46,764 nucleotides of DNA, taken from the IMG/VR virus record IMGVR_UViG_3300018481_000031, positions 1 to 46,764 of that record. One strand, given 5' to 3'. Below the pieces are notes generated by a model. That model searched no databases. It was not told the DNA's origin and saw nothing but the letters and a program-made list of their open reading frames with translations. Positions 1,862 to 42,244 of this stretch are shown piece after piece. The stretch is from a virus. A program made the position numbers and the translations under genes. Every line of letters begins with the position of its first letter. Position 1 is the first letter of the stretch.

Positions 1862-2560
1862 ATGCGTCCGCCCGCATCGATCGCACCTGGCACCGCATTC
1901 GGCTCCCGCGTTGTGATTCGCGAGTTGCCGCCTGTCCCGCTCGGCCGCAATCGCTTCCGACGCATGTTCCTGTGCGTGTGCAGCGTCTGCGGGTCTGAGA
2001 GCGAGGTCATCATGTACAACCTCAAGTTCCATGGGTGCCTGCCCTGCGCGAACGTCGCGAAGAAGGGCAAGCCCGGTCTTACCAAGACGCATGGCATGTC
2101 GAAGTCGCCCACCTACCGGATCTGGATAGCGTTACGCCGCCGTTGCTACGTCGAGACAGCCAGCGGCTTCGCTCTCTACGGCGGTCGTGGCGTACGCGTA
2201 TGCGCTCGATGGGCGTCGTTCGAGAACTTCCTTTCTGACATGGGTGAACGTCCCAGCGGAGATCACTCGATCGATCGCATCGACAACAACGGCAACTACG
2301 AGCCAGGCAACTGTCGATGGGCAACCGACACAGAACAGGCGCGGAACAAGCGCAACAACGTGCTTCTCACCGCTCACGGTACGACGAAGACGATGGCCGA
2401 GTGGACCGAGCAGTCGTCAGTCACGACTGGCGCGATTACCTACCGCCTCCGCACAGGCTGGTCGCCGGAGGACGCGGTCTCGCTGCCCGCGGGCGCGCGC
2501 GGAGATGGCAAGCTCAAGCGCGGCTCGACGTTATCGCGTTGGCGAAAGCGAGCCGGTTAG
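1862..2560 (+). CDS. HNH endonuclease with zinc ribbon
   Basis: The 232-residue protein has two Cys pairs near residues 40/43 and 59/62 that probably bind zinc. A phage-type HNH core follows at about 105-165: Y-G-G-R-G-V-x-V-C-x-R-W, then H-S-I-D-R-I-D-N-N-G-N-Y-E-P-G-N-C-R-W-A. In this family the His and Asp/Asn residues coordinate the metal that cuts DNA. The C-terminal part (T-M-A-E-W-T-E and later) resembles the small DNA-reading helices of homing-type endonucleases. It is a lone plus-strand gene between leftward genes, as expected of a mobile endonuclease. Confidence 0.85.
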   Translation: MRPPASIAPGTAFGSRVVIRELPPVPLGRNRFRRMFLCVCSVCGSESEVIMYNLKFHGCLPCANVAKKGKPGLTKTHGMSKSPTYRIWIALRRRCYVETASGFALYGGRGVRVCARWASFENFLSDMGERPSGDHSIDRIDNNGNYEPGNCRWATDTEQARNKRNNVLLTAHGTTKTMAEWTEQSSVTTGAITYRLRTGWSPEDAVSLPAGARGDGKLKRGSTLSRWRKRAG

Positions 2561-2561
2561 C

Positions 2562-3035
2562 TCATGCCGCGTGAGGCCGCGTGTTTTTCGGCTCCGCTGG
2601 CCATCGGTACCCAAGAACGCGAGTCGCTGGATACGCTGCGATGCTCACGCTGTTGCCTTGATTTCCACCGAGCAACAGAACGCGACCATGCGATGCGGCT
2701 GTCCAGAATGCCACGTGTCCTTGCGTTCGGTCTGGGCCGCGCTGGAGCACCGCTACGGCACCCGCTCGCGGCGTTAGCAACGGCTCGCCCCAACTAAGCC
2801 AGCTACGGGCGTTCGCTCGAGCAGGAGACGCAATGCCAGCCTGCTCCATGCACCAGCAAGCAAACGCCGAGCACCATGGCGTCTCGTCGCCAGCAGCCGG
2901 CACCAGCCGGGTCGCGGTGAAGTAAAGCAGCACTCGCGCGTTGGCGGCTGGGCCTGGCAACTCGCGCTGGCCCAGTTCGGCGCGCGCGATACGCAGCCAT
3001 GGCGGATCGTCGGCGTGCTTGCCTGTGGGGATCAC
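2562..3035 (-). CDS. endolysin, TIGR02594/CHAP-like
   Basis: The 157-residue protein begins P-P-W-L-R-I-A-R-A-E-L-G, as in the TIGR02594 group of phage hydrolases. T-P-W-C-S-A-F has a likely nucleophile at Cys55, Q-G-H-V-A-F has His107, and G-G-N-Q has Asn125, matching the papain-like triad order of NlpC/P60 and CHAP enzymes that cut peptidoglycan peptides. GTG at 3035 overlaps the upstream stop by four bases, which fixes the start well inside a longer open frame. It is the last gene of the leftward late unit and converges on the HNH gene. Confidence 0.8.
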   Translation of the reverse strand: MIPTGKHADDPPWLRIARAELGQRELPGPAANARVLLYFTATRLVPAAGDETPWCSAFACWCMEQAGIASPARANARSWLSWGEPLLTPRAGAVAVLQRGPDRTQGHVAFWTAASHGRVLLLGGNQGNSVSIAAYPATRVLGYRWPAEPKNTRPHAA

Positions 3036-11083: not shown

Positions 11084-11607
11084 TCACGCTCTCCCCAAGA
11101 TGCCGGAATTTGAAAGCGCTCGAGAGCGCCGGTTACGAGCTCCACACTGATATCAAGCATCACTCGGTGAAGTGCGGGGATCGTAGCGCTCGCCTCGACG
11201 CTGCGAGCGCTACCGGTATCGACGAGCCACGCAAGGTCGTGCTTGGCCGCGTCTTCCACGCGCCGCAGGTTCACAGGAATCGCGGGCAGCGACCGAAGCA
11301 GATACTGAGTCTCGCTGCGATACTTCCGCGCTGGGATGGTCTCGCTAAGGTTACCCCACCACTGCAGCGCGTTGTCACCCTGCAAGCCGCTGTCGCGCTC
11401 GTTGCCGCCGAACATCGACAGGTAGCAAGCGGACTCAAGCCCATCAGACAGCACGGCCTGACCGTCGAGAAAATCGATCTCGCCGCCGTCTTCGGTGTGT
11501 CGAAGGTGAACATCGGAAACTGGTTTTCTCAGTTGTGAGTTGCGGCGAACTGAGGCGCCTTGAACGAGCGGCGGCGGCGGCAGCAAAAACGATGCAGACG
11601 AGCTCAT
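11080..11607 (-). CDS. Mu gp46-like baseplate protein
   Basis: A 175-residue protein in the place of Mu gp46, just before the baseplate J gene. The pattern R-H-T-E-D-G-G-E-I-D, then L-S-D-G-L-E-S-A-C-Y-L-S-M-F-G-G-N, then S-G-L-Q-G-D-N-A-L-Q-W-W-G-N matches the GP46 family, including the aromatic W-W-G-N. Members form part of the baseplate wedge. The start is set by an ATGA overlap with a small upstream frame. Confidence 0.85.
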   Translation of the reverse strand: MSSSASFLLPPPPLVQGASVRRNSQLRKPVSDVHLRHTEDGGEIDFLDGQAVLSDGLESACYLSMFGGNERDSGLQGDNALQWWGNLSETIPARKYRSETQYLLRSLPAIPVNLRRVEDAAKHDLAWLVDTGSARSVEASATIPALHRVMLDISVELVTGALERFQIPASWGERE

Positions 11608-18891: not shown

Positions 18892-19556
18892 CTACCTTCG
18901 TCGGCGCGGCACACGCGGTATTGGCGCTGCGCCTTTGGGGTTGGTGTGCTGGCGGAGTTCGCCGCGTAGGCCGCTATAGAAGAAACGAATCTCAGCCATG
19001 CTCAGCGTGCGCGCGTCGGGCAGTCCCGGATAGTCGCGGCAGATCTGCAAGAGCATCTCACCGTAGACGGGAAGGAGTTTGTGGCCAGACGATTCGTGGG
19101 TTTTTGGTAGATGCGCGTCGGCGCCGTCTCGCACGAGCGGGGTCGACGCGTTCAACCCAAAAAAAGAGTCACGAGCGTGCGACAGACCTTGAAGTCGCGG
19201 TTCGGCAGTTTCGAAAAAGTCGCGGCTGGCTGACGCGTCATGTCCGCCATGATGGCGACCAGCTTCGCGACGTCCTGCCCCCTCTTCTTATTGTCCATCG
19301 CCATGAACGTCGCGCCCGTGGGCTCGTAGAAGGTGATTCGCTCGCCACCGCTCAGCGTGTAGACAGGCTGTCCATTCTCGTCGACGACGAGCGAACCTCG
19401 TTCCATCGCGCGTACGATGATGTGCTTCGCTTCTTCGAAACTTCTCGTGTCGTCGACGTCCATTCGCGACGTGTCGATGTCGAGATCCATTGCTTCGATG
19501 AAACGCTCGAACTCCTGCTCGGCTACTTCAGTGGCTACCTTCTGCTGCTCGTGCAT
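18892..19556 (-). CDS. tail-assembly chaperone, -1 frameshift product
   Basis: A second frame runs from the slippery site to a stop at 18892 and has no proper start of its own (its first start-like codon is TTG 19155). A -1 shift on T-TTT-TTG at 19158-19164 would join 133 residues of the short form to glycine plus 87 residues of this frame, about 221 in total. The extension has a charged part and the helix LPDARTLSMAEIRFFYSGL. Such gpG/gpGT-like pairs precede the tape measure in most long-tailed phages. Inferred from sequence and position. Confidence 0.75.
19152..19556 (-). CDS. tail-assembly chaperone, short form
   Basis: The unshifted product has 134 residues, is acidic at the N-terminus and predicted mostly helical, with a beta-type centre (GERITFYEPTGATFMAM), and ends ...T-L-F-L-G just after the slippery run. 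Short forms of this kind bind the tape measure during tail assembly and are made in excess over the shifted form. AGGAGG precedes ATG 19556 by three bases. It lies 22 bases downstream of the tRNA gene. Assignment rests mainly on position and frameshift signal. Confidence 0.75.
   Translation of the reverse strand: MHEQQKVATEVAEQEFERFIEAMDLDIDTSRMDVDDTRSFEEAKHIIVRAMERGSLVVDENGQPVYTLSGGERITFYEPTGATFMAMDNKKRGQDVAKLVAIMADMTRQPAATFSKLPNRDFKVCRTLVTLFLG
19158..19164 (-). promoter_or_regulatory. slippery heptamer T-TTT-TTG
   Basis: In the zero frame the codons are CTT TTT TTG GGT TGA. The heptamer fits X-XXY-YYZ with X and Y both T, so both tRNAs can re-pair after a one-base backward slip. The zero-frame stop follows one codon later and the -1 frame is open for 88 codons. 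This is the expected site for the programmed shift of the tail chaperone. Confidence 0.75.
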
Positions 19557-19578
19557 GGGCCTCCTGCGAACATGTGTT

Positions 19579-19653
19579 TGGTAGCGGGCCTTGGAGTCGA
19601 ACCAAGTATCTGCGGGTTATGAGCCCGCCGAGATGCCGTTTCTCTAGCCCGCC
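19579..19653 (-). tRNA. tRNA with CAU anticodon (Met, or Ile if modified)
   Basis: A complete cloverleaf of 75 bases including encoded CCA can be folded by hand. The acceptor stem GGCGGGC/GCCCGCT has a single G-U end pair. The D arm is GAGA/TCTC with GG in the loop, the anticodon stem GCGGG/CCCGC has loop CTCATAA, and the T arm CTTGG/CCAAG has loop TTCGACT. CAU reads Met codons, or AUA Ile if the C is lysidylated. G1-U72 instead of a C-A mismatch argues against an initiator tRNA. The gene lies within the late operon, between tube and chaperone genes, and would be cut out of the mRNA. Confidence 0.9.
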
Positions 19654-19661
19654 AAAAGATC

Positions 19662-19696
19662 GAGGGCGCCCGCAACACGCAGGAACGGGCGCCCTC
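19662..19696 (-). terminator. hairpin terminator between tail tube gene and tRNA
   Basis: GAGGGCGCCCG (19662-19672) and CGGGCGCCCTC (19686-19696) are perfect 11-bp arms around a 13-base loop. In the leftward direction the hairpin is followed by GATCTTTT, a short U-tract. It should stop part of the transcripts leaving the tube gene, which is normally needed in large amount. Readthrough would still supply the tRNA and chaperone. Confidence 0.7.
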
Positions 19697-19737
19697 TCAC
19701 TCCCATCACGAAGCGCCGGGGCGCCTCACGGTGGCTC

Positions 19738-20130
19738 CTATTGTTTGGTCAACTTGCCCGGTCCCATGAGGGAGCATCCGAGCGTGCTGTTCTGCGAAGA
19801 TCCTTCGACCGCATCGGTGACGATGCCGCGTCCGGAATACGTGGCACCTGATGCGAAAGTCACCGACATCGAATAGAACCCGTCGGGGTCAGCGTCCTTA
19901 CCGTCGGCGATGTCCTGCAAAAACTCTTGATCCCCACGTACATCGTCGATCGCGAGCGTCAAGCCGGTGATGGCCCAACCGACGCGCGTCTTGACGACGC
20001 GACCCGTACCATCGCCGTTCATCTGCACTTCGTTTTCGAACCCGCCGAACTTGCGAGTCGCATCCGCGTCGGCTGCGACGGCAAAGCCGCGACCGCGAAT
20101 CTCCACTGCTTCAATGCTTCCACCTGACAT
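19738..20130 (-). CDS. tail tube protein, Mu gp40-like
   Basis: A 130-residue protein directly after the sheath gene, with strong ribosome site AGGGGGGAG before ATG 20130. The pattern V-E-I-R-G-R-G-F-A-V-A-A-D-A-D-A, then G-F-E-N-E-V-Q-M-N-G-D-G-T, then S-V-T-F-A-S-G-A-T-Y-S-G-R-G matches myophage tube proteins of the Mu gp40 type, which stack as rings inside the sheath. Length is normal for the family. A terminator follows it, in keeping with high expression. Confidence 0.85.
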   Translation of the reverse strand: MSGGSIEAVEIRGRGFAVAADADATRKFGGFENEVQMNGDGTGRVVKTRVGWAITGLTLAIDDVRGDQEFLQDIADGKDADPDGFYSMSVTFASGATYSGRGIVTDAVEGSSQNSTLGCSLMGPGKLTKQ

Positions 20131-39957: not shown

Positions 39958-40069
39958 TGGCGTGCCCCTCCCTCACAGCCCGCTGGTAGCGGGCTTCATC
40001 GAAGCGCCTCCAGCGTCTCCGCAGGCAGAAGTTGAGCTCAGCATGGCTTTCCTCGTGCTGGTGAGTCAT
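39947..40069 (-). CDS. 40-residue early protein
   Basis: ATG 40069 overlaps the stop of the ParB-like gene by ATGA, and the frame ends eleven bases inside the next gene. The product is charged and rich in His and Arg (THQHEESHAELNFCLRRRWRRFDEARY). Overlap at both ends favours translation. Function unknown. Confidence 0.5.
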   Translation of the reverse strand: MTHQHEESHAELNFCLRRRWRRFDEARYQRAVREGHANGM

Positions 40070-40983
40070 GGCCTGTCCTTCGTGCCGGCATCCGCGCTGG
40101 CGAGCTTGTTGAGGGCGCCGCGCAACTGCTCAAGCGCGAGCACTGCGGCGTCGACGCGCGCAATGGCTCGGTCGCACTCGGCGGGCTTTGCGCGGTAGGC
40201 GTCGGCGAGGCGCTTAGCCGGCATGTCGAGCACGGACTCAGCCGCTTCGTGGATACGCGAGACGAGCTCGTTGACCACGCGTACGTCGGTCGACTGTGAC
40301 CGCCCTGTGGTGGTGGGCTGCTTCGCTTCCGGCATGCCCTGACGAATGCGCTCCACACGCACCGAGTCGCGAACAATGTTCTTCGCGGCAGCATTGCGAA
40401 AGCCATGACGAGTGACCCGCTCGGCTATCTCGACCTGTCGTTCAGGGGACGGGACGGGGGCAAGCTCGACCGCAACCTCGACTCCCAGTTTCTTCTCTTC
40501 GATGAGCGTCTGCACCGCGGGTGCAAGTCCGGCGATCGCGAGCATGTTGGAGATCCACACTGTCGAGCGGCCAAAGACAGTTGCCAGCCTCCGATTGCGT
40601 TCCGGCAGCGCGAGCTCCTTGTATTCCGGCATGAGCGCGATGCGATTGACGGCGCGCGCAGCTTCCGCAGGTGACAGGTCCTCGCGCGCGCAGTTGGCCA
40701 CGACGGCTTTGACGAATTGATCGTCGTCACCGCCTACCTCACTCACAAGCGCGAGCACGTGCGAGGCAGAGATCAGCTGAAGAGCGCGCCACCTCCGCTC
40801 GCCATCGATGAGCTCGTAGGCGTCGGAGGAATCGAGCAGCTTGCGTACTACGACCGGCGTCTGCTGTCCGTGCTCGCGCAAGCTCTCGCCAAGCTCTTCG
40901 ATCCTGTCCTGGGCGAAATCCTCGCGCGGCTGGCCATAGTAGGGCTGCACCTTCTCCAGCGGGATCGTCACGACCTGGCTCAT
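40066..40983 (-). CDS. ParB-like nuclease-fold protein
   Basis: A 305-residue protein with the ParB N-terminal domain: I-P-L-E-K-V-Q-P-Y-Y-G-Q-P-R-E, then G-E-S-L-R-E-H-G-Q-Q-T-P-V-V-V, and Y-E-L-I-D-G-E-R-R-W-R-A-L, the CTP/nucleotide-binding motif. The centre (EDLSPAEAARAVNRI, then VFGRSTVWISNMLAIAGL) is the HTH of the KorB/ParB type. No ParA partner is seen in the window. It may serve regulation, partition of a plasmid-like prophage, or anti-host functions. Confidence 0.85.
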   Translation of the reverse strand: MSQVVTIPLEKVQPYYGQPREDFAQDRIEELGESLREHGQQTPVVVRKLLDSSDAYELIDGERRWRALQLISASHVLALVSEVGGDDDQFVKAVVANCAREDLSPAEAARAVNRIALMPEYKELALPERNRRLATVFGRSTVWISNMLAIAGLAPAVQTLIEEKKLGVEVAVELAPVPSPERQVEIAERVTRHGFRNAAAKNIVRDSVRVERIRQGMPEAKQPTTTGRSQSTDVRVVNELVSRIHEAAESVLDMPAKRLADAYRAKPAECDRAIARVDAAVLALEQLRGALNKLASADAGTKDRP

Positions 40984-41609: not shown

Positions 41610-42244
41610 GGCAATAGCTCCACAGGCAGAAACTCGCCAAGCCGAAGCTCCAGCTCGTGCACGCGTGCCTCGGCAGCTTCAGCGCGTTCCAAGCAACCGG
41701 CGAGGTCGGTGTTTGCGGACTCGAGTGTCTCTACATATGTGGCCAGGCGAAGCGTCACCGCTTCAAGGTCGCGCACGCGAGTTTCGGCAGCTTCGGCGCG
41801 GTTGAACTCGTCCACCGCCAGCTCTCGGATCTCGTCGTCGCTCGTGCATTCCCCGATCTTGAGCAGTCGTTCGCTCGAAATCTGCAGTCGGCGCACTTCG
41901 AAGCGCCCTTGCTCGACTGACGCCTGGGTCGAGATGACACCGGCTTCTAGCTCGCGCAGAGAGGACTCCATCTCTTGCACACGCGCTTCTGCGGCTTCGG
42001 CTCGCTTATACGCCTCCACCAGCGCGAGCACTGTGCGCGGCGTCAGGAGCGCGAAGTACGACGCAAGCATGTACCTGTGCCCGTCCGGGCTGATGACCTT
42101 GCAGACCTCGTTGTGCTCGTTCATGACGTACTGGCCGTGCGTACTCCACGTCAGCGTGTCCTCGTCGAGCTCGTGCACAAGCATGGAAGCGAGGTTGCGG
42201 ATGTTCTCGATGTCGTCGTGCTCTTGTTCGCTGAGTAGCTTCAC
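41606..42244 (-). CDS. coiled-coil protein with WSTHGQYVM domain
   Basis: A 212-residue protein. Residues 1-75 (MLVHELDEDTLTWSTHGQYVM and SPDGHRYMLASYFALLTPRTV) match a separate short gene at 43849. From about 75 on the protein is a coiled coil with three A-E-A-A-E-x-R-V repeats, a layout seen in Ead/Ea22-like phage proteins. Probably a nonessential early protein; its partner is unknown. Confidence 0.65.
   Translation of the reverse strand: MKLLSEQEHDDIENIRNLASMLVHELDEDTLTWSTHGQYVMNEHNEVCKVISPDGHRYMLASYFALLTPRTVLALVEAYKRAEAAEARVQEMESSLRELEAGVISTQASVEQGRFEVRRLQISSERLLKIGECTSDDEIRELAVDEFNRAEAAETRVRDLEAVTLRLATYVETLESANTDLAGCLERAEAAEARVHELELRLGEFLPVELLP

Follow-up and report, generated by a model that had tools for sequence, protein, structure and literature searches.

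On balance, we read the interval between the tail tube and tail assembly chaperone genes of virus record IMGVR_UViG_3300018481_000031 as a 5′ leader that controls chaperone translation, with a tRNA gene that entered the linker of its pseudoknot. The whole 46,764-nucleotide stretch is here called the window. Sequence comparison supports the tRNA, the hairpin before it, complementarity in the window between the hairpin loop and the chaperone Shine-Dalgarno (SD) region, and a covarying pseudoknot in related phages. We infer SD blocking, competition by an SD-like 5′ copy, excision of the tRNA and an effect on the chaperone.

Gene order, tRNA and hairpin in the window

Both flanking genes are on the minus strand: the tail tube gene at 19738..20130 (PHROG 4699, E 3.5e-31), with a product 58–62% identical to tube proteins of Aeromonas and Shewanella phages, and a tail assembly chaperone-like gene at 19152..19556 (PHROG 4648, E 4e-32), which also matches the PHROG 166 tail protein (E 3e-4) and Pfam Phage_TAC_7 (TAC_7; E 4.9e-4, under the curated cut-off). 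Sheath, tape measure and baseplate genes share this strand, in a myophage tail operon. Near the end of the chaperone gene, CUUUUUUUGGG (19166-19156) and an overlapping downstream −1 frame (18892-19155) mark a probable programmed frameshift site of the G/GT type (18892..19166, minus strand), judged from sequence and ORF positions. Upstream of the structural genes is a ParB-like protein gene at 40066-40983 (ParB_N, E 1.7e-18; HTH_ParB, E 9e-9).

The tRNA gene (19579..19653, minus strand) is 75 nt long, with a CAU anticodon and encoded CCA, and lies 22 nt upstream of the chaperone start codon. ARAGORN and Rfam agree on it (19579/19582-19653), the RF00005 score is 56.6 bits against a 29-bit cut-off (E 1.1e-9), and its fold is a clean cloverleaf (z = −2.7). 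The first-pass annotation had placed a full CAU tRNA with encoded CCA on the late-gene strand between tube and chaperone genes, making the call depend on a good tRNA score, and all of this holds. It is the sole tRNA found in the 46,764-base record, and its exact core was absent from the other viral contigs searched. By the standard determinants, with E. coli tRNA-fMet as reference, it looks like an initiator (tRNA-fMet type): the anticodon arm GCGGG-CUCAUAA-CCCGC contains the three G-C pairs (G29-31/C39-41), A11-U24 provides the purine 11-pyrimidine 24 pair, and the acceptor side has G2-C71, C3-G70, G4-C69 and A73. Positions 1-72 form a weak G1·U72 wobble, not the C·A mismatch that is usual for initiators. 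Identity is 71% to E. coli tRNA-fMet and 73% to the tRNA of related locus L094, a similar closeness.

Upstream of the tRNA is the G+C-rich stem P1 (19662..19696, minus strand; 19696-19685 paired with 19673-19662), with 11 Watson-Crick pairs plus U·G, a z of −4.5 and a loop of 11–13 nt. Just two inverted repeats of this length occur in the window, the other being a perfect 11-bp repeat at 11183-11213 with a 9-nt loop. The spacer between hairpin and tRNA is 8 nt (GAUCUUUU), one less than first given. Earlier this structure was described as a strong hairpin with a U-tract, of which the strong stem stands; the U-tract shrinks to a UUUU that starts 4 nt off the stem and abuts the tRNA 5′ end. An additional G+C hairpin directly after the tube stop codon (19703..19734, minus strand) is a predicted fold without comparative support.

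Within the P1 loop, the anti-SD UCCUGCG (19678..19684, minus strand) can form seven Watson-Crick pairs with CGCAGGA (19568-19562), which overlaps the chaperone SD AGGAGG (19565-19560); the putative 3′ strand of the pseudoknot and the SD together span 19560..19568 on the minus strand. The helix has a stacking energy of −15.6 kcal/mol, with p 0.006 against random loops and 0.033 against shuffled loops, and the leader of the window ORF starting at 42244 pairs with the loop better than the chaperone SD does, by chance. An alternative partner for the anti-SD is an SD-like 5′ copy, UAGGAG (19735..19740, minus strand), which overlaps the tube stop codon; in the window this pairing is weak (UAGGA/UCCUG, 5 bp ending in a wobble).

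The same gap in related phages

Tube and chaperone profiles identified 176 related loci with 105 distinct leaders. Leader lengths are bimodal: 23 are short (<45 nt), 70 are 45–200 nt (most 70–110 nt), and 12 are longer. Most long leaders have P1, usually together with a second hairpin, P2, and the loop offers an anti-SD complementary to the chaperone SD region; for example, the complement of GCCCUAU is AUAGGGC, the SD region 3–10 nt upstream of the chaperone start codon. The letters vary among phages while the match is kept, as in UACCCUC/GAGGGUA, GGCCCUU/AAGGGCC, GUCCUG/CAGGAC, UCAGCCCUG/CAGGGCUGA and CCGUGUUUG/UAAACACGG. The linker between hairpin and SD has a median of 10 nt and is mostly 4–23 nt. 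Isolates among the element-bearing myophages come from Vibrio, Shewanella, Aeromonas, Acinetobacter, Oceanospirillum and Pseudoalteromonas, and many others are uncultured.

An initial pseudoknot scan often picked alternative helices, and a swapped-partner test was used in its place. The loop helix with a locus's own SD averaged −13.4 kcal/mol, against −10.6 when SDs were swapped between loci (p 1.7e-9); in the subset of 28 loci whose anti-SD departs from the consensus the values were −14.4 and −10.1 kcal/mol (p 1.5e-11), p values that are optimistic in that loci share ancestry. Compensatory changes are seen at one pseudoknot position as A-U (33), U-A (9), G-C (6) and C-G (2), and pairing drops outside the loop-SD helix. 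Among 37 aligned leaders, 88.6% of cells are paired across P1, P2 and the pseudoknot, and sliding the partners (a control that retains relatedness) gives no more than 56%; the covariation score is 0.38, with a maximum of 0.15 when slid, and none of 500 shuffles reached the observed level. The pseudoknot counts here are conservative, the MAFFT alignment (A5) placing the anti-SD of some rows a column or a few out of register. Double changes occur in 11 of 14 RNAalifold pairs. Covariation with the anti-SD extends to the 5′ SD-like copy, at a weaker level (80.5% paired, with a maximum of 60% when slid; swapped-partner p 1.4e-4). That one anti-SD has two pairings which exclude each other suggests a switch, the switching step being what we infer.

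With a covariance model that omits the pseudoknot, the element was detected at E ≤1 in 21 of 24 records, nearly always at the tube-chaperone gap, and held-out phages matched at E 7e-9 to 0.02. Rfam 15 gave no match at E ≤1 for the element in seven representative loci, and we did not find it described in literature on related wording, though other papers could still contain it. By comparative sequence evidence, the element is apparently an undescribed, conserved regulatory RNA. An 18-nt consensus pattern, searched elsewhere in viral genomes, hit 20 stretches; inspection revealed no element in those that lack tube and chaperone genes, which look like chance matches.

The element is not essential, because short-gap relatives live without it. 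Comparison of L068 with L053 reveals a clean deletion of the whole P1 part in L068, with the SD and start codon kept letter for letter.

The gap has also taken up other genes. In L054 an Acb2-like ORF (2552-3000; Pfam Acb2_Tad1_hairpin, E 1.6e-19), of a CBASS-counter-defence family, separates the leader element from the chaperone start, such that the element now precedes Acb2; the near-identical L071 is without the insert. In Vibrio phage 1.225.O (L012:4413-6783) a methylase and other small opposite-strand genes are inserted, and the pseudoknot remains beside the chaperone; there the gap looks like a cargo hot spot. At L088:1930-2004 and L006:1063-1117, a related-looking hairpin with an AUAGGG/AGGGC SD separates the major capsid gene from the one that follows; there the main-class model R1 (P1 and P2) scores E 2e-4 in the phage of L088 and 0.14 in L006.

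Set against this family, the window leader has a stem between the tube stop and chaperone start codons and a loop that pairs with the chaperone SD, which the family background makes the expected arrangement. Its linker is 93 nt, or 18 nt without the tRNA, within the usual 4–23 nt of the relatives. P2 is missing and R1 leaves the window leader unmatched up to E 10. By sequence, the window is an architectural match that keeps the three-strand layout and not a member of the modelled class.

Placement of the tRNA and competing readings

The tube-protein tree groups the window with L013, L014, L015 and L018 (support 99/87). The covariance model found no match in the leaders of L013, L015 and L018: L013 and L015 have short leaders lacking the element, and the L018 hairpin shows no pairing with the SD. 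A tRNA occurs in the tube-chaperone gap at one of the 176 loci, the window alone, ruling out a conserved tRNA at this site. In each of the phages of L013, L015 and L018, a CAU tRNA whose anticodon arm equals the window's is found near terminase, directly before the large-terminase gene for L013 and L015, and some 540 nt before it for L018; in L095 a CAU tRNA is placed between the two terminase genes, small and large, with ~20 nt left to the start codon. The window lineage thus keeps an initiator-type tRNA in late-operon leaders, and the window's site is probably the derived one. A candidate tRNA remnant between the window terminase genes, the place of the L013 and L015 tRNA, had no Rfam support.

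Two further tRNA or terminase arrangements were seen. Upstream of the sheath gene, L079:2021-2178 has adjacent tRNA-Met(CAU) and tRNA-Arg(UCU) genes, the CAU one without the initiator GGG/CCC mark. The large terminase at L095:1581-2999 has a seemingly intein-like insert, with primase and helicase-loader PHROG matches over the same stretch; that of L094 matches terminase profiles unbroken.

We propose that the P1 loop would present its anti-SD to the chaperone SD, forming a pseudoknot that blocks ribosome entry. The SD-like copy at the tube stop codon would compete for the anti-SD, and translation of the tube gene, or binding of a factor, could shift the outcome. An initiator-type tRNA gene would have moved into the linker that joins the hairpin to the SD. 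Before being cut, the tRNA would be a closed domain, with which the pseudoknot can still form. Once RNase P cuts at the tRNA 5′ end and the 3′ end is trimmed, hairpin and SD would lie on different molecules: a tube mRNA closing with the strong hairpin, and a chaperone mRNA whose short leader (AACACAUGUUCGCAGGAGGCCC-AUG) would have its strong SD AGGAGG free. Chaperone synthesis could thereby depend on tRNA maturation. The earlier idea that the tRNA is cut from the same transcript fares well as to its location in the late structural operon, and excision itself is presumed. Against the leader explanation stand the lack of a covariance-model match in the window and its closest relatives, the missing P2, the better chance match of the 42244 leader, the short-gap relatives that do without the element, and a loop-SD match in the window that is by itself only modestly improbable (p 0.006–0.03).

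The tRNA may instead serve only for supply or counter-defence, replacing initiator tRNA cleaved by a host nuclease, with its leader position an insertion accident; we give this less credence than the leader explanation, with which it can be compatible. Cleavage of initiator tRNA by VapC toxins is cited in PMC10264068 and PMC12482277. That the phages of L013, L015 and L018 carry the same type of CAU tRNA near terminase, the gene kept while its place changes, speaks for this reading, but it leaves the hairpin and the SD match unexplained, and the anticodon loop is the usual CUCAUAA, with no nuclease-escape change visible. A little less likely again, the hairpin simply serves the tRNA and tube mRNA as a protective 3′ end or as leader structure, capping the tube transcript against 3′–5′ exonucleases after RNase P cutting, with a chance loop-SD match and a free-riding tRNA. 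The hairpin does end 8 nt before the RNase P site, the statistics of the loop-SD match alone are again only those just given, and the closest relatives lack the pseudoknot yet have a similar tRNA elsewhere in the late operon; against this, the gap of most relatives has a hairpin loop covarying with the SD although it is tRNA-free.

It is improbable that the hairpin is a weak intrinsic terminator, an attenuator lowering transcription of the chaperone and the genes beyond. The strong G+C stem is followed by GAUCUUUU, with 5 U in 8 nt, and some relatives have UUUU–UUUUU a few bases past the stem; yet the U-run in the window is 4 long and begins 4 nt past the stem, the loop is long, only 7 of 59 relatives show 5 or more U within 8 nt past the stem, and no sigma-70-like promoter was found on the tail-gene strand between the hairpin and the essential tail genes. 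A terminator scan of the window does not list the hairpin, in part since the scan allows loops of up to 8 nt. The first-pass annotation had taken the hairpin for a terminator and suggested that the arrangement could set the tube-to-chaperone ratio. Relatives keep the stem with an SD-complementary loop, not the U-tract, essential genes lie downstream, and the promoter search in the gap was negative, all contrary to termination, which is poorly supported also in that the loop is 11–13 nt, the UUUU lies 4 nt off and relatives have no conserved U-tract; a weak attenuator keeps a low probability. The ratio may well be set at this gap, which is a likely control site, through a translational pseudoknot rather than a terminator.

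The leader explanation has a stronger form, which we offer as speculation. The tRNA would make the pseudoknot a processing-driven switch, RNase P excision irreversibly removing the SD-blocking hairpin and tying chaperone synthesis to tRNA maturation; more broadly, the tail operons of this group of phages would contain a so far undescribed RNA switch of three strands (SD-like copy, anti-SD, SD), by which the output of chaperone is set in relation to that of tube.

Comparison with known systems

Building a phage tail takes much more tube protein than chaperone, and discussion of control usually centres on the frameshift within the chaperone gene. The window gene resembles G/GT-type tail chaperones with a programmed frameshift in having a U7-GGG slippery run at its end; whereas the known regulation of those genes is at the frameshift, the window leader precedes the start codon. 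A conserved SD-sequestering pseudoknot before the chaperone gene points to a second control layer, testable in cultured phages, and the window adds an arrangement that would place tRNA processing and mRNA control on one RNA.

Riboswitch-type and ribosomal-protein leaders sequester the SD by a hairpin-loop anti-SD with a competing strand. The tube-chaperone element is similar in that its loop anti-SD can pair with the SD and the competing strand offers an alternative pairing; it differs in having no Rfam family match among seven representative loci, in belonging to phage tail operons and in being without a known ligand. The T4/T2 gene 32 leader pseudoknot autoregulates translation of the gene behind it (PMC3014915), and is alike as a phage mRNA leader pseudoknot controlling translation of the following gene, as we propose for the window. 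In gene 32 the structure is set 67 nt ahead of the start codon and serves to nucleate the binding of gp32, whereas in the window type the pseudoknot strand is the SD region itself, without a known protein ligand. Gordonia phage GodonK and other phage records have annotated tRNA-Met genes, with a CAU tRNA ~72% identical to the window's; unlike these, that of the window sits in the structural operon, inside a putative regulatory leader.
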